Shown here one piece after another: positions 284-48,913 of a stretch of 48,913 bases of DNA (position 1 is its first letter; every line of letters begins with the position of its first letter). Location: contig JAILEP010000048.1 in NCBI GenBank assembly GCA_024697825.1, positions 1-48,913 of the forward strand, in the 5' to 3' direction. This DNA is from Acholeplasmatales bacterium (GTDB taxonomy: Bacteria; Bacillota_I; Bacilli_A; Acholeplasmatales; Anaeroplasmataceae). The notes beneath the pieces are model-generated. The model searched no databases and was not told the DNA's origin. It was given only the letters and a program-made list of their open reading frames with translations. A program made the position numbers and the translations under genes.

Positions 284-1903
284 TTATTCTACTGCAATGA
301 TGTAAGAATAAATATCCTGCTTACCTTCAATGATTTCAACATCAAGGTTAGGATTTACACTTAAGCATACATCCTCAACTGCATTTCTTTCCTCATCAGT
401 GATATCAGCACCTAAGAAGATTGTAACAATCTCAGATTCATCAGTAATGATCTTGCCAAGTAAATCCTTTAAGCAGTCAGACTTCTTTTCAGTAGAAACA
501 AGGATTTCACCATCAGCGATACCCATGAAATCACCAGAATTGATCTTAACACCCTTAATTTCTGTATCTCTAATTGAATAAGTAATTTCACCTGAAGTTA
601 CATTTTCAATCATAGCACCCATAGCTTCAACATTTTCCTCTAAAGAAGACTCTGGATTGTAATTAACTAATGATACATAGCCCTGTGCAATAGTCTTTGC
701 AGGTAATACTGCAACATTAACACCATTTACAAGACCTGCAGCCTGCTTAGCAGCCATAACAACGTTACCGTTATTAGGAATGATAATTACATTCTTAGCA
801 TTAACAGCCTTAATAGCATCAATGAATGATTCAGTAGATGGGTTCATTGTCTGACCACCTTCAATAATGTAGTCTACACCCATTTCCTTAAATGTCTGAG
901 CGATACCATCACCGAAGCAAACTGCAACAAGTGCAAATTCCTTCTTTGGCTCTTCCTTCTTTGGCTCAGCAGCCTTATGATCCTCATCTGCAATCTTAAC
1001 ATTTTCAATCTTGAATGAAATGAATTCACCCTGCTTCTGGCAGATTTCGATAACACGACCAGGTCTATCTGTATTTACAGCAGCTAGTACTCTGTTTTCT
1101 TCTCTTTCAACCTTAACATTTTCACCTAATAATGAAAGTGCAGCAGTTAATTCCTTAATTTCAAAAGAATCAGGCTTCTTTAAATCTAATACTAAATCAG
1201 TTCTATAAATATACTTAGTAGCCTTCTTCTGTTCCTTCTTTTCAGCAGTAGATGCATTAGCATCCTCAACAGTAAGAATCTTACCCTGTAAAGCAAGAAC
1301 CATACCTTCAATGAATCTGCAGAATCCAGCTCCACCTGAGTCAACTACTCCAGCTTCCTTTAAAACTGGTAATAATTCTGGTGTACGAGCTAATGACTTC
1401 TTAGCTGCCTCATAATAGAATTCTAATAATTCATCAATTGTCTTAAAGCTTTCAAGCTTAGCAGAAGTTTCTTCTGCAGCCTCTCTTACTACTGTAAGTA
1501 CTGTACCTTCAACTGGTTCCATAACTGCCTTATAAGCAATCTTTCTACCTGATACTAAGCAGTTCATGAAATCATTAATATCTAAATAATTATGCTGGAT
1601 TTCCTTTAATCCTACATATAAACCTCTAAAAAACTGAGATAAGATAACACCAGAATTACCTCTAGCACCCATTAAAGCACCTCTTGATAATACTTTTGCG
1701 TTATCGATAATTGAACTAGATTCGCAAGTTTCTAATTCTCTAATACCTGAAGTTACTGTCATTGACATATTTGTACCTGTATCTCCATCTGGAACAGGGA
1801 ATACGTTAAATGAGTCAACTTCAGCATGATGATTTTTTAAATTGATAGCTCCATTGATTACCATCTTTCTAAAAAGTGCAACATCGATCTGAACGACACC
1901 CAT
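284..1903 (-). CDS. fakA: FakA/YloV-type DAK2-domain kinase
   Basis: The protein has 539 residues, usual for the family. The N-terminal DAK2 kinase domain (about residues 10-200) carries the nucleotide and Mg2+ motif VPDGDTGTNM and the glycine-rich stretch ARGNSGVILSQFFRG. A middle linker and a C-terminal DegV-like fold (about 330-539) follow. In Staphylococcus, FakA phosphorylates fatty acids held by FakB (DegV) proteins at the membrane, feeding phospholipid synthesis. No fakB is in the window. The ATG at 1903 is chosen because GGAGG lies at 1913-1917; an in-frame start 48 bases upstream has no such site. Unlike Bacillus, no asp23-like yloU precedes it. Confidence 0.87.
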   Translation of the reverse strand: MGVVQIDVALFRKMVINGAINLKNHHAEVDSFNVFPVPDGDTGTNMSMTVTSGIRELETCESSSIIDNAKVLSRGALMGARGNSGVILSQFFRGLYVGLKEIQHNYLDINDFMNCLVSGRKIAYKAVMEPVEGTVLTVVREAAEETSAKLESFKTIDELLEFYYEAAKKSLARTPELLPVLKEAGVVDSGGAGFCRFIEGMVLALQGKILTVEDANASTAEKKEQKKATKYIYRTDLVLDLKKPDSFEIKELTAALSLLGENVKVEREENRVLAAVNTDRPGRVIEICQKQGEFISFKIENVKIADEDHKAAEPKKEEPKKEFALVAVCFGDGIAQTFKEMGVDYIIEGGQTMNPSTESFIDAIKAVNAKNVIIIPNNGNVVMAAKQAAGLVNGVNVAVLPAKTIAQGYVSLVNYNPESSLEENVEAMGAMIENVTSGEITYSIRDTEIKGVKINSGDFMGIADGEILVSTEKKSDCLKDLLGKIITDESEIVTIFLGADITDEERNAVEDVCLSVNPNLDVEIIEGKQDIYSYIIAVE

Positions 1904-1979
1904 ATGGTAATACCTCCTAATGATAATAATAAATATATGGTCTAAGGCCAAATGCCTGTATTTGTAAAAAATAATAAAC

Positions 1980-2072
1980 TTTAAAAAAAAATTAAGACTT
2001 ATTACTTATAGTAATACACCCACCAATCTCATTATCTCCCAAGCCCATTTTTGGGCAGTCTAAAAACTAGAC
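1980..2072 (-). other. Hairpin-rich leader of fakA, function unknown
   Basis: The roughly 170-base leader between the promoter and fakA holds AGTCTA/TAGACT, GCCC/GGGC and ATTACT/AGTAAT hairpins, then a run of nine T near 1983-1991. Early termination or an RNA switch is possible, but I recognise no known class. The rest of this 350-base gap to rpmB shows only the two opposing promoters. Confidence 0.3.
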
Positions 2073-2078
2073 TATTCT

Positions 2079-2107
2079 TTTATATCACTTTTTACAAGCG
2101 TTGTCAA
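2079..2107 (-). promoter_or_regulatory. fakA promoter
   Basis: On the minus strand, TTGACA (2102-2107), a 17-base spacer and TATAAA (2079-2084) form a near-consensus sigma-70-type promoter. Predicted start is about 2072. Confidence 0.75.
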
Positions 2108-2187
2108 ATTTTTCCTGACAAATGTGTGCCGATATAAGACAAATGATCTAAATTATTATATATATTACAAAAGACTTAAAAAAATTC

Positions 2188-2216
2188 TTGCAAAAACAAA
2201 TCTAATGTAGTAAAAT
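2188..2216 (+). promoter_or_regulatory. rpmB promoter
   Basis: TTGCAA (2188-2193), 17-base spacer, TAAAAT (2211-2216). It gives a leader of about 32 bases with AAGGAGG at 2240-2246 before the rpmB start. Confidence 0.8.
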
Positions 2217-2254
2217 AAACGAGCCTATTTATTGGTATCAAGGAGGTAAGAATC

Positions 2255-2443
2255 ATGGCTAGATGTTATGTAACTGGTAAGACAACAGTAACTGGTAACA
2301 AGAGATCTCATGCTTTAAATGCTACTCGCCGTACTTGGAAGGCTAATCTTCAGACAGTTCGTATTAAGGACGAAAACGGAAACGTTAAGAAGGTTAAGGT
2401 TTCTGCAAGAGCTTTAAAGAAGGGCAACATTGAAAGAGCTTAG
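2255..2443 (+). CDS. rpmB: 50S ribosomal protein L28
   Basis: The protein has 62 residues, the normal size for L28, a late-assembling protein of the large ribosomal subunit. The N-terminus [11 protein letters not shown], the central [16 protein letters not shown] and the basic tail are family hallmarks. Only one cysteine remains, so this is the zinc-free form. The gene stands alone, with its own promoter and terminator, and is divergent from fakA, as in Bacillus. Confidence 0.96.
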
Positions 2444-2476
2444 TAATAAGCTTCAATAATTGAATTACGCAACTAG

Positions 2477-2498
2477 ACAGGTTAATGCCTGTTTTTTT
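2477..2498 (+). terminator. rpmB terminator
   Basis: ACAGG (2477-2481), six-base loop, CCTGT (2488-2492), within a run of seven T. The stem is short but well placed after the rpmB stop. Confidence 0.7.
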
Positions 2499-2514
2499 GC
2501 TTTTATAAGGCAAG

Positions 2515-2541
2515 AAAAAAGACCTCGAAAGGTCTTTTTTT
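2515..2541 (-). terminator. rpe terminator, bidirectional
   Basis: AAAAAAGACCT, loop CGAA, AGGTCTTTTTTT. Symmetric A and T tails let it stop transcription from both sides. It touches the rpe stop codon at 2540 and backs up the rpmB terminator. Confidence 0.85.
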
Positions 2542-3178
2542 ACATCTTATGAAGAATTTCTAATCTTTCCTTCTTGTTATCTGCATTACATACATAAGAG
2601 CCAGATACAGCTAAATCTAAATATTCTGCAATAGCAGGTAATGTCTTATCATTGATACCACCATCTACAGAAATTAAATAATTATAATTGTTCTTCTCTC
2701 TTAATTCCTTAAGCTCCTTAGCCTTATCAATTGCACTTGGCATAAACTTCTGTCCACCAAAGCCTGGTTCAACTGACATAACTAAAACTAAATCTAAATA
2801 AGGAAGATATTTTTCAATTGCAGATACTGGAGTACCTGGCTTAATTGAAATACCTGGCTTTACACCAAAGCTCTTAATTAAATTAATTGTTTCCATTACA
2901 TCACAATCAGCTTCAACATGGAATGTAATATACTGGCTTCCTGCCTCTGCAAACTGCTTAATATAATTTTGGGGATGTAATAGCATTAAATGAGTATCAA
3001 ATGGCTTATCAGTTACAGGTCTTAAAGACTTTACTACTGCTGGTCCAAAAGAAATATTTGGAACAAATTCACCATCCATTATATCCATATGAATATAATC
3101 AACATCATTGATTACTTCCTTTAAAGAATCTGCAAATCTAATCCAATCTGCAGTTAAAATTGATAATGCAACCTTCAT
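2540..3178 (-). CDS. rpe: Ribulose-phosphate 3-epimerase
   Basis: This cytoplasmic TIM-barrel enzyme of 212 residues interconverts ribulose 5-phosphate and xylulose 5-phosphate in the pentose phosphate pathway. Metal and catalytic motifs are visible: HMDIMDG (H30, D32, D35), the H of THLML, MSVEPGFGGQ and SVDGGIN. It follows rsgA by 15 bases, with AGAGGA before the start, and is the last gene of the rlmN-rsgA-rpe operon. Confidence 0.95.
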   Translation of the reverse strand: MKVALSILTADWIRFADSLKEVINDVDYIHMDIMDGEFVPNISFGPAVVKSLRPVTDKPFDTHLMLLHPQNYIKQFAEAGSQYITFHVEADCDVMETINLIKSFGVKPGISIKPGTPVSAIEKYLPYLDLVLVMSVEPGFGGQKFMPSAIDKAKELKELREKNNYNYLISVDGGINDKTLPAIAEYLDLAVSGSYVCNADNKKERLEILHKM

Positions 3179-3193
3179 TATAATATCCTCTCA

Positions 3194-4108
3194 TTATTTG
3201 TTTTTTAGCTCATTATAAAGCTTGACATAGCTTTCGTATCTAGACTTTAAAATTTCGCCATTTTTGACCGCTTCTCTAACGCCACAGTCCTTTGAATTCT
3301 CTAAGTGATTACAATCACTAAAACGGCATTTATGACCTTTAAATTCAATGAATAAATCATTTAAATCATCCTTTGTTAATCCAAGTAGGGCTGCCTCAAG
3401 CTTCGAAAAGCCTGGAGTATCTCCTAAAAGACCACCCATAAATTGGTAAAGGCTGATTTCTCTAGTCGTATGTTTACCACGACCTAAAGCATCTGATATT
3501 TCCTGAGTTCTAAGTGTAAATCCTGGAATCAAAGTATTTACTAAGGAAGATTTACCAGCACCTGTCTGTCCAGATAAAATTGAAATCTTATCAGGAAGGC
3601 ATGATAAAACATCCTCTCTTCCTTCTCCAGACTTATTGTTAACATAGAATACCTTATACCCTAGCTCCTCATAATATTTCATATTACCCTTAAGCTCTTT
3701 AAGCTCACTATCTGTTAGCTTATCAATCTTAGTGATAACTATTACTGGAGTAATATTATTTTTAACAATATTAATTACAAATAAGTCTAATAAATAATAA
3801 GAGAAGTCAGGCTCCTTAGTTGCAAATACCAAAATGATCTGGTCTACATTTGCAATATCAGGTCTTATTAATGAATTTTTACGTGGCTCAAAATGGTCAA
3901 TCATATCATTTTCTATAACAACGATATCACCAACCTTAGGTGAAGACTTAACGATAGTTGGAGTCTTCTTTTTACTTAAGGATTTAGTATTTGCCTCATA
4001 AACCTTTTCAGCACGAAGCTTTCCTCTTGCCTTAACATCTATGATAGAACCATCCTCAAGCAATACCTTATAAACGCCACCGTTTAGGTTAATTACTCTG
4101 CCCTTCAC
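3194..4108 (-). CDS. rsgA: Ribosome small-subunit biogenesis GTPase RsgA
   Basis: A circularly permuted GTPase of 304 residues that checks late maturation of the 30S subunit. An N-terminal OB fold precedes the G domain, whose motifs come in permuted order: G4 (ITKID), then G1 (GQTGAGKSS), then G3 (DTPG). The C-terminal zinc knuckle is seen as the Cys/His cluster in CRFSDCNHLENSKDC. The start is GTG at 4108; its G is the last base of the rlmN stop (TAGTG), which implies translational coupling. Bacillus has prpC and prkC between rlmN and rsgA; they are absent here. Confidence 0.95.
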   Translation of the reverse strand: MKGRVINLNGGVYKVLLEDGSIIDVKARGKLRAEKVYEANTKSLSKKKTPTIVKSSPKVGDIVVIENDMIDHFEPRKNSLIRPDIANVDQIILVFATKEPDFSYYLLDLFVINIVKNNITPVIVITKIDKLTDSELKELKGNMKYYEELGYKVFYVNNKSGEGREDVLSCLPDKISILSGQTGAGKSSLVNTLIPGFTLRTQEISDALGRGKHTTREISLYQFMGGLLGDTPGFSKLEAALLGLTKDDLNDLFIEFKGHKCRFSDCNHLENSKDCGVREAVKNGEILKSRYESYVKLYNELKNK

Positions 4109-7633: not shown

Positions 7634-8674
<1,041 letters not shown>

Positions 8675-8693
8675 AAATTTCCTCCTCTGACAA

Positions 8694-8933
8694 TAAAAAA
8701 ATCCTTAAAGCTTATAGCTCTAAGGACGAATTAACCGTGGTACCACCTTAGTTCAGTAATTATAAAAATGAATTACTGCACTCATTAATTCCTTAACGCA
8801 GAATATACGGGGATGATTAATCCCAGCTCTAAGGGTGAATTCGTAGACTTTATAACAGGAATATTTCACCAGCTAATTCCCTCTCTAAGTTTTAAAGATT
8901 CTACTACGGTCCTCTTCATTGCCTATTAAAAAC
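8694..8933 (-). promoter_or_regulatory. T-box leader, phenylalanine-specific
   Basis: A tRNA-sensing leader ahead of pheS. The T-box AAGGTGGTACCACGG occupies 8735-8750. The terminator pairs TCCTTA...AGCT with AGCT...TAAGGA over 8701-8726 and is followed by seven T. Stem I contains the specifier in GAATTCACC; TTC at 8837-8839 is a phenylalanine codon, matching the genes controlled. Uncharged tRNA-Phe should favour the antiterminator and switch pheST on. Confidence 0.93.
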
Positions 8934-8939
8934 ACGTAT

Positions 8940-8968
8940 ATTATAACTCAATCTAAATTAATTATCAA
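8940..8968 (-). promoter_or_regulatory. pheST promoter
   Basis: TTGATA (8963-8968), 17-base spacer, TATAAT (8940-8945) on the minus strand. Start is predicted near 8933, at the head of the T-box leader. Confidence 0.85.
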
Positions 8969-8984
8969 GTTGTCATTTAAAAAG

Positions 8985-9009
8985 AAAAAATGCCACAAAA
9001 TAGGCATTT
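8985..9009 (-). terminator. Terminator of the cca-pullulanase-yhaM operon
   Basis: AAATGCC (8988-8994) pairs with GGCATTT (9003-9009), followed on the minus strand by six T. The stem includes part of the stop codon of the preceding gene. Confidence 0.8.
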
Positions 9010-9895
9010 AAATCTTATAGAATTTAGTCTTATCTAAAACAGCGATTGGCTGAGTGAAATCGCCATCCTCAATCTTAGGTAATTCTTCCTCAAGTACTCT
9101 AAACTTAGAATCAATAGTATCAATATACCAAAGTAATAAAGCTTCTGCAATCATTGGCTTTCTTGCAGCACCATATTGTGGTACACCATGGTGAGAAATA
9201 AGCATATGCTCTAAAACTAAAGCCTCCTCAGTATCAGCAAGGCCTAGCTCAGTTGCGGCAAGCTTAACATCCATTGCACCCATAACTAAATGACCAATTA
9301 GCTGGCCCTCAGTTGAATAGGCTGGATTTATAGGGTCTGTTAGCTCCTTAGTTTTTGCAACATCATGTAAAATGATTCCTGCAAATAGGTAATCAGAATC
9401 CATATATGTATAAATTTTAAGCATAGCTTCTGCAAGCTCAAGCATACCAATTACATGGTAAGCAAGACCACCAACATAATTATGATGCATCTTAGTTGCT
9501 GCTGGATATAAGAAAAAGTCATCATGATATTTATCTAATACCTTTTCTGTAATTCTTCTTATATTTTCATTCTTAATTCTATTTAAATAATCATTAATAA
9601 TATATTCAGATTCAGAAGCTGAAATTGGAGAAGACTTAAAGAATTCTCTCATTGTATCTCTCTTCTTATCATATTCGAATTCTCTTACATTAGTAAATGT
9701 TTCAACATTATAACGGATTCTACCATCTCTATTATCTAATGTACAATTAAATTCATATACGTCTGAAATCTTAATATTTTCTCCAGCCTCTGCTGAAATC
9801 TTAAGATTAAATAAATTATTATCCTTATCCTCTACAGCTAAATTAAACATACCATCTGATGTATTAATTCCTGTAACCTTACCAATCAAAAACAT
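9008..9895 (-). CDS. yhaM: YhaM-type 3'-5' exoribonuclease (OB fold plus HD domain)
   Basis: The protein has 295 residues. An N-terminal OB-fold nucleic-acid-binding region (about 1-90) is followed by an HD phosphohydrolase domain, with the histidine pair in HHNYVGGLAYH and the metal motif HD in ILHDVAK. Homologues (YhaM, CbfI) trim RNA or DNA from the 3' end in the cytoplasm. The ATG at 9895 has AAAGGA upstream and sits one base after the pullulanase stop, so it is coupled as the last gene of the operon. A GTG 30 bases upstream lacks a ribosome site. Confidence 0.88.
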   Translation of the reverse strand: MFLIGKVTGINTSDGMFNLAVEDKDNNLFNLKISAEAGENIKISDVYEFNCTLDNRDGRIRYNVETFTNVREFEYDKKRDTMREFFKSSPISASESEYIINDYLNRIKNENIRRITEKVLDKYHDDFFLYPAATKMHHNYVGGLAYHVIGMLELAEAMLKIYTYMDSDYLFAGIILHDVAKTKELTDPINPAYSTEGQLIGHLVMGAMDVKLAATELGLADTEEALVLEHMLISHHGVPQYGAARKPMIAEALLLWYIDTIDSKFRVLEEELPKIEDGDFTQPIAVLDKTKFYKI

Positions 9896-43272: not shown

Positions 43273-43408
43273 TAAAAATCGTAAAAAATCGTACATTCAC
43301 ATATTTGTAAACAAAAAATACTCATATATAAATATTGAAGAATTACCAGAACATTTAGAAGGAAAGCTATTATTTCAACATGTCTAGAAACATAACATTT
43401 AATACAAT

Positions 43409-43446
43409 TTCGGACACCCTCAAAAAAGTTCGGACACCTGGACACC
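43409..43446. repeat. Direct repeats TTCGGACACC, possible IS end
   Basis: TTCGGACACC occurs at 43409-43418 and 43429-43438, and TGGACACC follows at 43439-43446. Repeated motifs at an element end are known in IS21-like elements. No transposase is recognised nearby. Confidence 0.4.
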
Positions 43447-43455
43447 TTACAAAGC

Positions 43456-43582
43456 AAAAGAAAAGCCACCCTCTAAGGATGACTTATTTCTACAGGTTGC
43501 CTACCTGCAAGCGTAAAGCTATCTACTACGGCCCATAGGTACTTGAATGCCGGGCACACACGTACGTATTCGGCTACCTTTC
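43456..43582 (-). ncRNA. Candidate structured non-coding RNA
   Basis: This gene-free stretch is richer in G and C than its surroundings. On the minus strand it has a perfect TATAAT at 43591-43596 (no clear -35), a hairpin CAGGT-AGGCA-ACCTG, GCCC/GGGC pairing, and a final hairpin GTCATCC/GGGTGGC followed by TTTTCTTTT. The ends GAAA..AGCC and GGCTTTTC can also pair with each other. I do not recognise 6S, SRP, tmRNA or RNase P RNA. Confidence 0.4.
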
Positions 43583-43591
43583 AAATAAAAA

Positions 43592-43798
43592 TTATATTAT
43601 TTTGACAACAATATCATCATTTTTCATTCTTACTATTGCTCTAGTATTCTTGTCTTCATTTATTTCGTTAAAGAGCCTATCCCAATCTTTCACTTCTATT
43701 CCAAGCTCTTTAAAATATTTTTTAAATGCCTTTTGAAATCTAATATCTAAAAAATCTGTAATTACAAAATCTTCATAATTCAATATAATATCCTCCAA
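43592..43798 (-). pseudogene. Short ORF, probably the N-terminal stump of a GNAT acetyltransferase
   Basis: 68 residues (MEDIILNYEDFVITDFLD... to ...RMKNDDIVVKII). The pattern resembles the first beta-alpha-alpha-beta part of GNAT acetyltransferases and stops where the acetyl-CoA-binding half should follow. That recognition is from memory, so a complete small protein is not excluded. It lies 11 bases after the AAA/DUF4143 gene and is probably co-transcribed with it. The gene-free stretch between here and flotillin holds the candidate RNA and IS-like repeats. Confidence 0.45.
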
Positions 43799-43809
43799 AA
43801 TTATTGCGC

Positions 43810-45072
43810 TTAAATGTATTCAATTGGAAGTGCATAAAGATTATCTCTTAATTTTAATTTATAATCTCCTCTGCAAATGATTGCACCAATTCCTCTCTTT
43901 TTGCTTAAATCTTTGTCTAAAACATCAAATGCGGATGCCATTTCTGATTTTGGATTGGTTGTTTTTTTGATTTCAATTGGATACAAAACACCATTTTCTT
44001 CAATAATCAAATCAATTTCACTATCTTCAAATGTATCTATACCTTTTTGTGTCTTCGTCACTTTATCTTTACCACGATAATAGAATATTCTCTTTTTGTA
44101 ATCTTTTCCTTGATTAATATATGATTTAATTATTTCATTAATTACAAATGTCTCAAAGAATGCACCATTCATTGCACCATTTTCAAGTGTTTCTGGTGTT
44201 AACCAAGAAGTTAAATAAGCAGCTAAACCAGTATCCCTAAAATATACTTTAGGCGTCTTAATTGCTCTACTCAAATGAGAATTATAATAAGGCTCTAAAA
44301 GATAAATAATATCTGTTTTTTCTAGAACTGAAATCCAATTTCTAATTGTTTCAAGTGATACGCCTACATCTTTTGAAATACTACTATAATCAAGCATATT
44401 CCCTGTTCTTGCAGCTACAGATACCATAAACCTATAAAATAAATTATTATCCCTTATTTTCGTAATATCATAAACATCTCTTTCAATATAAGTCTTTACA
44501 TATGAAGAATAGTATTCTTCCCAGTCTCTTGGATTATCTTCATATAATTCAGGGTATCCACCTCTATGAATTACCTTCCATAGATTTTTATACTTCTTAA
44601 TACATTTTTCACGTTCTTTAAAATAGTCTAAGGTTGGAATAAAAGGTGTATTAAAAGAAATGTTATTTATTTCTCTTAGAGATAATGTTCCTAACTCTAA
44701 AATAGAAACCATTCCAGCTAAGGATTCAGATAAACCTTTCATTAATTCCCATTTTTGTGATCCTGAAAATAAATAATTACTTCTAGTAGAAACTTCATCA
44801 AGTATTGTCTTTGTTGCACCAATCAATTCAGGAACCATTTGAACTTCATCTATAAAAAGAGGTCTTTCAAAATTTTCTAAAAATCCTTGAGGATCTTCTT
44901 TTGCATTATTTAAAAGAACTAAATTCTTTAGATTTATTCTCCTTATATTAGGAAACATATGCGTTGTCATGGTTGTTTTACCAACTTGTCTGGCTCCAGT
45001 AATTGCTACAGACTTAGAAGTATCAAATCTATTTTTTAGGATATCTTCAATCGCTCTATTGATGTATGTCAT
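43810..45072 (-). CDS. AAA-family ATPase with DUF4143
   Basis: About 420 residues. Walker A is GARQVGKTT (about 24-32) and Walker B PLFIDEVQ; the sensor region SGSQKWEL follows. The C-terminal DUF4143 part has EIDLII...YPIEIKKT, a pattern like PD-(D/E)xK folds. Such proteins are common and patchily spread, and their role is unknown. The ATG at 45072 (or 45075) is set by GGAGG at 45080-45084. The frame opens further upstream, but that part lies before the predicted transcript start. Confidence 0.9.
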   Translation of the reverse strand: MTYINRAIEDILKNRFDTSKSVAITGARQVGKTTMTTHMFPNIRRINLKNLVLLNNAKEDPQGFLENFERPLFIDEVQMVPELIGATKTILDEVSTRSNYLFSGSQKWELMKGLSESLAGMVSILELGTLSLREINNISFNTPFIPTLDYFKEREKCIKKYKNLWKVIHRGGYPELYEDNPRDWEEYYSSYVKTYIERDVYDITKIRDNNLFYRFMVSVAARTGNMLDYSSISKDVGVSLETIRNWISVLEKTDIIYLLEPYYNSHLSRAIKTPKVYFRDTGLAAYLTSWLTPETLENGAMNGAFFETFVINEIIKSYINQGKDYKKRIFYYRGKDKVTKTQKGIDTFEDSEIDLIIEENGVLYPIEIKKTTNPKSEMASAFDVLDKDLSKKRGIGAIICRGDYKLKLRDNLYALPIEYI

Positions 45073-45106
45073 CATACCACCTCCGACTATTCTCAATTTC
45101 AATTTG

Positions 45107-45135
45107 ATTATAGCCAAAAGTACTTCTCTTGTCAA
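45107..45135 (-). promoter_or_regulatory. Promoter of the AAA/DUF4143 gene
   Basis: A perfect consensus on the minus strand: TTGACA (45130-45135), 17-base spacer, TATAAT (45107-45112). Confidence 0.88.
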
Positions 45136-45240
45136 TATTCAAATGATACATTTCAAATCAAAAAAACTATACCATTAAATAAATTTACATAATTTACATC
45201 ACAAAATTTTACATAAATATTACACCAAATTTCTGAGACA

Positions 45241-45322: not shown

Positions 45323-45396
45323 ATCGAGCATGATGCCTTAACTCCTAAGGGAAAGGCCCCCAGTTAGAGTCTGGGTAAGTGCGCCAGATAAGCAAT

Positions 45397-45430
45397 AAAA
45401 TCATCCCGTAATAAGGATGATTTTTTTTAT
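45397..45430 (-). terminator. Terminator of the AbiE-phosphorylase operon, bidirectional
   Basis: AATCATCC pairs with GGATGATT, loop CGTAATAA; eight T follow on the plus strand and four on the minus strand. It may also end an unknown plus-strand transcript. Confidence 0.75.
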
Positions 45431-45438
45431 ATCTATTA

Positions 45439-46218
45439 CTAATTATTATTCATTATTTTCATTCCAAGTTCAAACGCTAAAAACATAATTTTAATTTTAT
45501 CATCAAGTCTCGCACCACCAGCTAAGCTTCTTGGGTCCCAATTAGAATGATCTAAATTATCACCTGCATAAAAGAATTGAAAAAATTCGGTTCCTCTAAA
45601 ATCGCATAGAGCTTGCATAGCGGAACATTCCATTTCAACACATATTGCACCTTGTTCCTTTCTTTTTGCTACTTTATCTTTAGTTTCTCTATATGGTGCA
45701 TCTATTGTCCATGTTCTACCTTCAACATAAGGATACCCATATTCTTTTAAAACTTCTTTGAATTCTTCTTTATATTTTTTATTAACCTCAATTGTATCTT
45801 TTGGTTTAGCATAATGATAACTTGTGCCTTCATCTCTTAAAGCACTTGTAGGTATAATAATACCACAATCTTCAATAGATTTATCAAGAACTCCACAATT
45901 ACCAAGTAATATGAGTTTTTTACTTCCCATAACCATTATATCTTCATATTGATTAACACAAAGAGATGCCCCAACCATAGAATGAAATAACGCAAATCTT
46001 TTACCTTTATATTCAACTTCATAGATATAATTTAATCCTACTGCCGAATGAACATGACCAATTTCTTTAGCATCAAATGTTTGAAGTACGTTATTGAATA
46101 ATTTTTCAGAGAAACAAGAGATTGTTACCTCAGGAAAATTTTCAATTATTTTAGCGCACATTTCAGGCATAATTATAGCTTCTTTATTTTCATCAAAATC
46201 ATTTAACAACATAATCAT
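45439..46218 (-). CDS. Nucleoside phosphorylase coupled to AbiE
   Basis: 259 residues of the PNP/UDP phosphorylase superfamily, which splits nucleosides with phosphate into base and ribose 1-phosphate. The family motif GAICVEMECSAMQAL (ribose binding, Glu-Met-Glu) is clear, and ILLGNCGVLD matches the phosphate/base loop. The start overlaps the upstream toxin stop as ATGA, so translation is coupled. Substrate unknown: purine or uridine types are both possible. Lying third in a toxin-antitoxin operon is unusual. Confidence 0.88.
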   Translation of the reverse strand: MIMLLNDFDENKEAIIMPEMCAKIIENFPEVTISCFSEKLFNNVLQTFDAKEIGHVHSAVGLNYIYEVEYKGKRFALFHSMVGASLCVNQYEDIMVMGSKKLILLGNCGVLDKSIEDCGIIIPTSALRDEGTSYHYAKPKDTIEVNKKYKEEFKEVLKEYGYPYVEGRTWTIDAPYRETKDKVAKRKEQGAICVEMECSAMQALCDFRGTEFFQFFYAGDNLDHSNWDPRSLAGGARLDDKIKIMFLAFELGMKIMNNN

Positions 46219-47204
46219 ACTACTCCATTAATTTCATTTTCTAATTTTTCTAATACTTTTACTATCTCATCAAAAGATGGATAGTCCTTAAAAAACATTG
46301 GTTCCATCATTTTATAATCATTCTTCAAATCATCAAGATTCTTTGGAATCAACTTAAATGTCCCTGGCCTTGCCTCTTCAAATTTAGCCCATGGTCTATT
46401 GTAGAATGTCATTGTAAAGAGTCTAACATCTTCTAATATGCCCAAATTATTCAATGCGTCACTTTTTACATTAGAATAGTACATTTTAAATAAATCATAA
46501 TAATGTCTTGAATATCTTTGAGGAATTTTACCATTTTCTCTATTAGCTTCTTGATGTAGTATTACTGCTTTTTCCCAAAATGTTCTAACTGGTAAAGTTA
46601 CTCTCACATTGAAACTTACATTATTAAATAGACTAGGATAATATGTAGAAGCATAACTTTTTATAGTTTTTGTCTCATAAGGCGTCCAAGACGCAACTGG
46701 TCCAATCTCAATTTTTACAGCATTTTTTATGTATGCTGTATTATAGCTAGATGGATATTCTACATAGATAGCTAATTCTTCATCACTTAGAGTGATTTTT
46801 AATTGTTTATTAATTTCATTTGATAAATCATTGGTTATTACCTGTAATAATTTGCCTTTATAAAACTCTAGTGCTCTATTATTTAATTCATCTACTAATT
46901 TATTCTTTTGATTATTTGAAATACTAAATAAATCTTTCGAAAAATTAAAATCAATTATTCTGCTATTTAATACAATATCAATATCTTCAGACATTCTATC
47001 TATAAGATTATATGCCTTAGATAATGATGTTCCACCCTTAAATTCAAAAAAATCTTTATATTCACATCTATTGAATAAATAATCTAAAATATAACAAACC
47101 CATAAATCTTTTTCTACTATTGAAGAAGCAAGTCCGCTTTTTCTTGATGTTGCTTCAACAACTTCATTTATTTCATCTATACTTCTATTTAATAATTTAA
47201 TCAT
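46215..47204 (-). CDS. AbiEii-family nucleotidyltransferase toxin
   Basis: 329 residues. FEFKGGTSLSKAY and SEDIDIVL are the GGTSLS and DxD motifs of AbiEii/MenA-type nucleotidyltransferases; EKDLW near residue 32 is also typical. Characterised members (MenT) add nucleotides to tRNA acceptor ends and halt translation, serving in phage defence. The start overlaps the antitoxin gene by 8 bases. Confidence 0.92.
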   Translation of the reverse strand: MIKLLNRSIDEINEVVEATSRKSGLASSIVEKDLWVCYILDYLFNRCEYKDFFEFKGGTSLSKAYNLIDRMSEDIDIVLNSRIIDFNFSKDLFSISNNQKNKLVDELNNRALEFYKGKLLQVITNDLSNEINKQLKITLSDEELAIYVEYPSSYNTAYIKNAVKIEIGPVASWTPYETKTIKSYASTYYPSLFNNVSFNVRVTLPVRTFWEKAVILHQEANRENGKIPQRYSRHYYDLFKMYYSNVKSDALNNLGILEDVRLFTMTFYNRPWAKFEEARPGTFKLIPKNLDDLKNDYKMMEPMFFKDYPSFDEIVKVLEKLENEINGVV

Positions 47205-47805
47205 TATGCTTTAACTCCTTCAATTCTTTAATTAGTTCATATATCCATTTATCAACTGACTTTGCTTGAATTAACGCGTCATCTATTATTTTATTTGATA
47301 CATTATTAGCTAAAATTCTTTTAGATTTATCATCAAAATTATCTTTTCCATAGTAATTTATTGCTTGAATTAAATACTGAACCATTTTATCCATATTAAA
47401 CATTTTCTTTGTAGATGAATGTTTAAAATTAATAATCTTCCCATCAATATTATATTTTTTATATGGACCAGTTGATGAATATGTATATGTTTGTGGCAAT
47501 TGAGTAGATAATCCAAAATAGTTAATCGCAACTTCTCCAGTTGGAACTATATCCCACCCAAATTTTCTTGCTATACATTCTGATAGTTCAAAAACATTAC
47601 ATGGGAGATATTCATTTAATAAAGAAGAGTATTTAGGTTTCATATAAATACCATCAAGTATTTTTATAATTACACCCTTATTAATTAGTCTTTGAATTAT
47701 TTTTTTTATATTTTCATAGTTAGTTAAATCTATAAAATCGTTAAGAATAAAAATAGATCCGTCACTAAGGTTATTAATTCTAAACTCTACTTCTTTAGAT
47801 AACAT
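47197..47805 (-). CDS. AbiEi-type antitoxin/transcription regulator
   Basis: 202 residues. An N-terminal winged-helix region (1-70) contains GSIFILNDFIDLTNYENIKK-like helices and the wing LINKGVIIKILDGIYMKPKY, shown here in part. The remainder matches AbiEi/DUF6088 proteins. Such antitoxins bind inverted repeats at their own promoter, and one is present at 47820-47851. AGGTGG lies before the ATG at 47805. Confidence 0.87.
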   Translation of the reverse strand: MLSKEVEFRINNLSDGSIFILNDFIDLTNYENIKKIIQRLINKGVIIKILDGIYMKPKYSSLLNEYLPCNVFELSECIARKFGWDIVPTGEVAINYFGLSTQLPQTYTYSSTGPYKKYNIDGKIINFKHSSTKKMFNMDKMVQYLIQAINYYGKDNFDDKSKRILANNVSNKIIDDALIQAKSVDKWIYELIKELKELKHND

Positions 47806-47987: not shown

Positions 47988-48035
47988 AAAAAGTCACCAC
48001 CAAACCAATTTTTAAGGCCAAAAAGTCACCACCAA
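47988..48035. repeat. Two direct copies of AAAAAGTCACCACCAA
   Basis: Copies at 47988-48003 and 48020-48035, exactly 32 bases apart; a third partial copy, CGCCACCAAAA, follows at about 48042. They lie 140 bases from the tRNA-Arg half, where arm-type integrase sites would be expected. The rest of the gap from 47860 to 48172 shows no gene. Confidence 0.6.
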
Positions 48036-48172
48036 CAAACTCGCCACCAAAATGATATCGAAGAACTACAAAAACTGCACGAAATAGACGTTTTGTACAA
48101 AATAAGGCAACAAACTGAACGATATTTAACAGTATAGATAAACAAAAAGATATTTTTCTTAAATTTTCAAAA

Positions 48173-48216
48173 TCCTAAGCGAAAGGTCGTGCGTTCGAAT
48201 CGCATCGGGAACGCCA
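48173..48216 (+). other. 3' half of tRNA-Arg(CCT): probable att site
   Basis: TCCTAAGC matches the end of a CCT anticodon loop, followed by the T arm GTGCGTTCGAATCGCAT, the acceptor strand CGGGAAC and GCCA. No 5' half (expected to begin GTTCCCG) lies upstream. tRNA-Arg(CCT) is a frequent target of tyrosine integrases that cut in the anticodon loop and leave such a 3' remnant at one element end. Confidence 0.85.
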
Positions 48217-48226
48217 TTTTGATGTT

Positions 48227-48263
48227 AAAACAGCCTCAGAATTATTAACTCTGAAGCTGTTTT
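48227..48263 (+). terminator. Terminator after the tRNA-Arg remnant
   Basis: AAAACAGC pairs with GCTGTTTT and CAGA with TCTG inside, followed by T. It is likely the original tRNA terminator, which also places native chromosome to the right. Confidence 0.8.
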
Positions 48264-48278
48264 TTATCATTATAAACA

Positions 48279-48443
48279 TTATGAGATTCTTAATTCAACT
48301 TTATATATAAATGTTTCAATGTCATCAATAATAGTATCAAAATTCTTATTTAGGTGTTTTTGAAAAACTATGCTCAAAACATATTTCTCTCTACCATTGC
48401 TTATATCAAAAATATAGAACTGATTATTCTGATCTATTTTCAT
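48279..48443 (-). CDS. Small ORF overlapping the surface-protein end, maybe its frameshifted tail
   Basis: 54 residues, MKIDQNNQFYIFDISNGREK... to ...IETFIYKVELRIS. It overlaps the preceding frame by 20 bases and has no ribosome site. The peptide reads like a natural protein end, so it may be the true C-terminus of the surface protein, split by a frameshift, rather than a separate gene. Confidence 0.4.
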   Translation of the reverse strand: MKIDQNNQFYIFDISNGREKYVLSIVFQKHLNKNFDTIIDDIETFIYKVELRIS

Positions 48444-48913
48444 AATAACAAGCAAATATGCTTACTTCAGATAAAATACTAGGAGATAAAGTAACTCCAT
48501 AAGTAAACTTACCTACAGAACTATAAGTATAATTTAGAATTATATCATCTTTTAGTAAATCACTTTTTATTACAATGGTATTATAGCCTTTTATACCTTC
48601 TGCCCTTAATACAATTGTTGAATCATCATCATAACAAAAGCTTAATTTCACATAGCATTTAGTGCTTGCTTCAGAAATCATTTTTTCTACTTTAATTTCA
48701 AGTTCAGGAATCGTATCTAGCATAGCAACATTTTCTGTTTTAAATTCAATTACAAATTCCTTGGGCTTATATATAGGAACTAGCTTCATATCCTTATTTA
48801 ATACAGTATTTTGATCTATAGCTTTAGTTAATTTATTACTATCAGCCCATCCAATAAATTCATAGCCATGCTTCTTAGGTTTTCCTAAATCGTTAACTGT
48901 TTTTACATTATCT
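48424..48913 (-). CDS. Surface protein with InlB-type repeat, partial
   Basis: The frame is open from the right edge to the stop at 48424 (162 residues visible); the start lies outside the window. The part HGYEFIGWADSNKL...TVLNKDMKLVPIY matches the Listeria-Bacteroides (InlB B) repeat, a small extracellular beta domain. A beta-rich domain of about 110 residues follows. No anchor such as LPxTG is seen in this frame. Function probably adhesion or glycan binding, by family. Confidence 0.7.
   Translation of the reverse strand, partial: DNVKTVNDLGKPKKHGYEFIGWADSNKLTKAIDQNTVLNKDMKLVPIYKPKEFVIEFKTENVAMLDTIPELEIKVEKMISEASTKCYVKLSFCYDDDSTIVLRAEGIKGYNTIVIKSDLLKDDIILNYTYSSVGKFTYGVTLSPSILSEVSIFACYYENRSE

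Follow-up and report, generated by a model that had tools for sequence, protein, structure and literature searches.

The window analysed here, 48,913 nucleotides long, is the entire contig C58 of a 1.91-Mb genome in 142 contigs from a rumen Mollicutes placed in Anaeroplasma. Near its right end lies an orphan 3' half of a tRNA-Arg(CCT) gene (half B, 48173–48216, + strand; TCCTAAGCGAAAGGTCGTGCGTTCGAATCGCATCGGGAACGCCA), which begins at T33 in the anticodon loop with the core TCCTAAG (48173–48179) and ends at CCA. Half B is identical at 44/44 positions to the 3'-terminal 44 nt of the 77-nt tRNA-Arg(CCT) of three congeners (G011, G033 and G036), and a chance match is negligible. It occurs once in its own genome, ARAGORN called no tRNA at 48173–48216, and no adjoining 5' half was found nearby in the window. 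To its right, a hairpin and T-run (48229–48266, + strand) form the terminator; G033 has similar terminators, and an intact tRNA in G035 has a downstream flank that starts in the same way. An earlier note made from the sequence had taken this fragment for an orphan half marking an integration boundary at the anticodon loop, with the tRNA's own terminator still in place, and all three points hold. A Rfam search of the window's end gave no convincing match. Rightward of half B, the gene at 48401–48913 (List_Bact_rpt/Flg_new match) has copies with 93–94% identity in G009 C26 and in G008 C14, and near each of them lies an additional 71% copy; this similarity to relatives is far above that of the rest of the region and perhaps reflects a recent transfer.

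Half B is not the window's lone orphan. A second 3' half, missed in the note and from a different tRNA-Arg(CCT), lies at 45343–45386 (half A, + strand; (T)CCTAAGGGAAAGGCCCCCAGTTAGAGTCTGGGTAAGTGCGCCA) and is identical (43/43) to that of a whole, element-borne tRNA-Arg(CCT) that abuts the gene of a 530-aa tyrosine integrase in G012. Half A is followed by a terminator of its own (45398–45431, + strand), and 45342–45431 is 90% identical to the G012 tRNA 3' half and terminator beside that integrase. The two halves thus come from different source tRNAs, with the same orientation, the same start base and a terminator each.

Cargo and arms of the two units

Halves A and B bracket a 2.8-kb unit, element 2, which carries three genes on the minus strand: a PNP_UDP_1 family gene (45439–46218, Pfam), an AbiEii nucleotidyltransferase toxin gene (46215–47204, Pfam and PADLOC) and an AbiEi-like gene (DUF6088, 47197–47805, Pfam and PADLOC). 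To the left of half A, which forms the boundary between the two units, element 3 carries an AAA_14/DUF4143 gene (43810–45135, minus strand, Pfam; PADLOC candidate defence PDC-S01). Both cargo types are present elsewhere in the genus, with a different order in G001: an 86% copy of the AbiEii operon in G001 C157, an 84% copy of the PNP_UDP_1 gene in G035 C160, and copies of the AAA_14/DUF4143 gene in G002 (91%) and beside a tRNA-Asn on contig C115 of the same genome (96%). The C115 copy (1770–3133) begins some 130 bp beyond tRNA-Asn(GTT) and reaches the contig end.

Half B forms the right junction of the PNP-AbiE unit. Just before it, comparison with the right ends of relatives' elements places a conserved arm with putative integrase sites (47993–48063, + strand): GTCACCACC at 47993 and 48025, and CGCCACC at 48042, in the position occupied by GCCAACA repeats in G003. 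The right arm from 47994 to 48276 is 78% identical to the right end of the element in the isolate A. bactoclasticum ATCC 27112 (G030), and 48029–48179 matches part of G009 C42 at 82% identity. For element 3, the repeats TTTACAT at 45184, 45193 and 45208 (45184–45214, + strand) are weak candidates for right-arm sites, in the same position relative to the core as at other right ends. Judged by its sequence, the PNP-AbiE unit may be classed as a CIME, since it has a half-tRNA att core at both ends and lacks integrase and relaxase. An element lying to the left of half B with the AbiE and AAA/DUF4143 genes as its cargo, as the note had predicted, is thus supported. Its idea of a single classical element ending in a rebuilt intact tRNA is not; the window has two right ends, one nested in the other.

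The left boundary is imprecise. Homology to relatives, which covers the leader of a Band_7 gene, stops near 43306; no conserved neighbour was found upstream of the Band_7 gene in relatives, so the end of homology serves as the boundary. The boundary zone (43307–43809) holds neither an att core nor a 5' half, and its GGACACC repeats at 43412–43446 may be what remains of an arm. In the interval from the Band_7 leader to the AAA/DUF4143 gene, 43450–43600 (minus strand) is rich in hairpins, ends in a terminator-like hairpin and is possibly transcribed; it matched no Rfam family, and its folding energy is ordinary (z −1.2). An assembly chimera, with a false join of a nested array's right side to the chromosomal Band_7 region, would also account for this abrupt end. 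Relatives' contigs do end within such sites (G036 C142, G038 C38, G035 C69, G008 C69 and G037 C16), and the 96% AAA/DUF4143 copy stands at a contig end. We consider a chimera quite improbable: that copy differs from the window's at 52/1196 dispersed sites, and there is no long exact repeat at its end. Moreover, a misjoin would bear on the left boundary alone, and the halves would remain real att sites.

Split tRNAs and whole replacement tRNAs in relatives

We mapped the core CCTAAG across the relatives, which include A. bactoclasticum ATCC 27112 and rumen MAGs; most of the genomes compared are MAGs whose contigs end at these sites. Relatives carry orphan 5' halves, alone or several in a row. 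After each comes a leader of 180–265 bp, mostly with obvious paired direct repeats, which ends in a whole tRNA-Arg(CCT); beyond this tRNA lie its terminator and, convergent with it, the integrase gene. This layout, with the whole tRNA adjoining the integrase, is found in G012, G003, G030, G008 and G009; it also appears in G037, where the contig end cuts it. PF00589 was found in the 530- and 540-aa integrases. One leader type follows four different 5' halves (G012, G003, G030 and G008 C69), and in G012, G003 and G030 neither the kind of tRNA nor the integrase that follows it changes; of the integrase, G030 retains the C-terminal part only. Leader, tRNA and integrase therefore travel together.

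A complete element of 8,237 bp is present in G009. It starts after the 5' half of a tRNA, X, with a leader, a whole tRNA-Arg(CCT), the integrase and a MobL relaxase, continues with an ArsR-type regulator, a DUF5714 gene and an antiporter, and ends in a right arm followed by the 3' half of X. G009 alone has both split halves on one contig; rejoined, they reproduce the X tRNA found intact in G037, without a mismatch over 78 nt and with four in the terminator. In G003 and G012 the halves lie on two contigs and pair at 12/12 positions. Across these three genomes, element and target share only TCCTAAG/CTCCTAAG, about 7–8 bp, and the left and right arms of one element have repeats in common (GCCAACA in G003, ATCGGAA in G009). 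The split-tRNA element with tyrosine integrase in the isolate A. bactoclasticum is flanked by halves of two different tRNAs, and rearrangements therefore occur.

These elements leave their target split and bring a whole tRNA of their own, whereas the note had expected a rebuilt tRNA at the junction. What follows the left target half in G009 is the leader and no tRNA 3' half, unlike in a classical island. The note had also named two findings that would count against an integration boundary: a relative with the same half tRNA and no island, and a complete tRNA at the site. Neither was encountered; relatives' orphan halves adjoin element right-arm DNA, and no complete tRNA appears there.

The same data bear on an integrase-free origin, in which tRNA fragments were scattered by transposition or by decay of a duplicated tRNA cluster. 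By inspection, an IS-like transposase end lies upstream of a tRNA in G033 and another appears beside an AAA/DUF4143 copy in G030 C42. Such scattering would have to produce halves A and B with a common anticodon-loop start base, a common orientation and retained terminators, adjoining repeat-bearing arm DNA as in integrase-bearing relatives. The fixed start point at many loci already largely refutes it, and we give it very little credence.

Two further readings of the split genes were rejected. For a group I intron in the anticodon loop, the whole second tRNA that follows is out of place, and Rfam reported no group I intron there. For an element carrying a 5' half, as in 159 Islander islands, the integrase should lie between two 5' halves; it lies beyond the whole tRNA, and the halves co-vary. 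The integrase had no match in IMG/VR, and its GenBank phage matches reach at most about 31% identity among the matches listed.

Additional variation was seen at these loci. A hybrid tRNA-Arg in G010 (C53 6333–6408), which ARAGORN did not call, joins halves of two types with a mismatched anticodon stem and looks like a scar of recombination between cores. In G003 (C7, about 8005–9145), an insertion of about 1.1 kb separates the element tRNA from its terminator exactly at the tRNA's 3' end; this is perhaps another element, one that uses the tRNA 3' end. In a second genus of this family, integrases related at 29–43% identity lie beside tRNA-Arg(TCT): in G140 and G143 an orphan 5' half precedes a repeat-bearing leader (TGCGGGATAATGTGCGGGATTG) and a whole tRNA-Arg(TCT) whose 5' half is identical to the orphan, and G147 has a similar tRNA and integrase layout from which the 5' orphan is absent.

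Co-adaptation of tRNA halves

Among 12 tRNA-Arg(CCT) sequences, two-sided changes were found in 18 of the 21 stem pairs, with 98.4% of cells pairing. Own halves pair at 11–12 of the 12 acceptor and anticodon positions, swapped halves at a mean of 6.7/12. The anticodon stems change in concert (ATGCC/GGCAT in G003 versus GACCC/GGGTC in G012), with 2–3/5 pairs when the halves are swapped. Additionally, three related tRNAs have replaced G19–C56 by U19–A56, a change of one base in each half, and kept A20. These patterns suggest that a borrowed 3' half would rarely yield a working tRNA here.

Taken by itself, the window's row of orphan 3' halves with terminators would be explained equally well by classical accretion. 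With a tRNA 3' half in their attP, elements would integrate serially in one tRNA-Arg(CCT), each rebuilding the tRNA at its left end and pushing the previous 3' half rightward, and the window's units would be ordinary CIMEs. This is the commonest layout, with a 3' fragment in 3760/3919 Islander islands (PMC4383910), and it is suggested in G033 by a whole tRNA and an orphan half, 2.4 kb apart, with identical 3' parts; the phage-labelled record MT836781 resembles it as well. We nevertheless regard it as unlikely. Half A joined to the 5' half that fits B would make a poor rebuilt tRNA, with 9/12 pairs and a G19–A56 clash, and on these sequences one 5' half could not have served both halves well. 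The integrase-bearing relatives, in turn, have whole tRNAs together with orphan 5' halves, which are foreign to the classical layout.

In MT836781.1, a human-gut record, a tyrosine integrase is followed by an orphan tRNA-Arg(CCT) 3' half and then by dynamin-like genes that look chromosomal (1568–3722). It appears to be an independent element using the same site, a parallel; its 87% match reflects only the conserved tRNA half.

Missing partners in the same genome

The note had proposed that an intact tRNA-Arg(CCT) might be found elsewhere in the genome. One exists, the only intact copy (C104:361–437), but it shares just 79% identity with the congener gene that half B matches and is therefore not that half's partner. 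Beside it lies the only trace of a cognate integrase in this genome, a broken C-terminal piece with 81% identity and two stops, in agreement with the suggestion that the system has decayed. A search of this genome for the 5' halves of A and B found neither: 41 CYTCCTAAG sites were listed, and among those whose flanks were read (most, not all) only the C104 site was tRNA-like.

The C104 tRNA has the U19–A56 swap typical of element-borne tRNAs and sits after an aminotransferase gene that precedes a different tRNA-Arg(CCT) in G011; the broken integrase C-terminus follows it (C104 144–314). Here, an element tRNA perhaps replaced the host tRNA wholesale. The genome also has a tRNA-Arg(TCT), which might read AGG too.

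A probable nest of elements that split and replace tRNA-Arg

Tyrosine-integrase phages that do not rebuild the tRNA they enter are known from actinobacteriophages. In tRNA-dependent lysogeny, described for Fionnbharth, Gabriela and Gaia (Guerrero-Bustamante and Hatfull, mBio 2024, PMC10865867), the common core is short, the target tRNA is not rebuilt and the phage genome supplies the cognate tRNA; a possible earlier case cited there is prophage Lj965 of Lactobacillus johnsonii. We put the probability at roughly three in four that half B is the attR of an integrated element of this tRNA-dependent family and that the window is the right side of a nest. Against this reading stands the fact that the window lacks the left end with its whole tRNA, leader and integrase, and that the split is seen in relatives only.

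In the proposed mechanism, a lambda-type tyrosine integrase would carry out strand exchange within a tRNA-Arg(CCT) gene, in its 7-bp anticodon loop (TCCTAAG). Since target and element share only about 7–8 bp, the tRNA would stay cut in two, with its 5' half on the left and its 3' half and terminator on the right, and would not be rebuilt. Beside the element's left arm would stand a whole tRNA-Arg(CCT), followed by a terminator and the convergent integrase gene, and this replacement would presumably work in translation. It contains the same core, so the next element may insert there, giving a nest with trains of 5' halves to its left and of 3' halves to its right. Applied to the window, this means that element 2 (PNP-AbiEii-AbiEi, its integrase lost) would have split tRNA B, and element 3 (AAA/DUF4143) would later have split element 2's tRNA A, giving the order element 3, half A, element 2, half B. 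Homology on the left ends near 43306 without an att core, so a deletion or an assembly gap must be assumed to have removed the left side of the nest, with its 5' halves, whole tRNA and integrase; what is left would now be immobile.

Discussion

The Anaeroplasma elements match the mechanism of tRNA-dependent lysogeny in their tyrosine integrase, an attB in the anticodon region of a tRNA that is not rebuilt, a very short common core (about 10 bp in the actinobacteriophages), and paired arm-type repeats. They differ in a tRNA that lies at most about 250 bp from the attP core. Their hosts are Mollicutes, and a phage nature is not implied: one complete element has a MobL relaxase, and the window's units carry AbiE and AAA/DUF4143 genes. 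The phage tRNA was proved necessary in actinobacteriophages, whereas those of the Anaeroplasma elements are known from their genes. Natural nesting is repeated here; for the actinobacterial system it was only speculated that a second plasmid could take a first plasmid's tRNA as attB (PMC10865867).

Other tRNA-associated elements share part of this organization. CIMEs and tandem ICE/IME accretions are likewise integrase-less units bounded by att sites and stacked at one tRNA (PMC5704250), but in tandem at one rebuilt target end, whereas the units here appear nested in each element's own tRNA and their boundary halves come from different tRNA genes. In Islander islands, a displaced tRNA fragment also marks the endpoint and crossover lies in the anticodon loop; there the tRNA is rebuilt and one fragment, 3' (3760) or 5' (159), is left (PMC4383910), whereas the element here has one fragment of the same split tRNA at each end and encloses a third, whole tRNA. 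A border tRNA, a tyrosine recombinase and cargo islands are also features of tycheposons in the description of PMC10872708; hosts and cargo differ, and split tRNAs with carried replacements were not found in the parts of that description available to us. No description of tRNA-dependent integration in Mollicutes was found in the open-licence literature searched.

More broadly, and with less assurance than for the window itself, we favour the view that small, non-phage mobilizable or defence elements of the Anaeroplasmataceae integrate serially, each newcomer breaking its predecessor's tRNA-Arg and supplying its own. The working tRNA-Arg(CCU) would then always be that of the newest element, the halves of each tRNA would be co-adapted, and orphan halves would record the order of insertion. 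For annotators, this means that a tRNA gene may be an element's own, and that tools expecting one rebuilt tRNA and one fragment misplace the ends. The spread of tRNA-dependent lysogeny outside actinobacteriophages was said in 2024 to need investigation (PMC10865867); tRNA-dependent integration as seen on two isoacceptors (CCT and TCT) in the Anaeroplasmataceae addresses that question.
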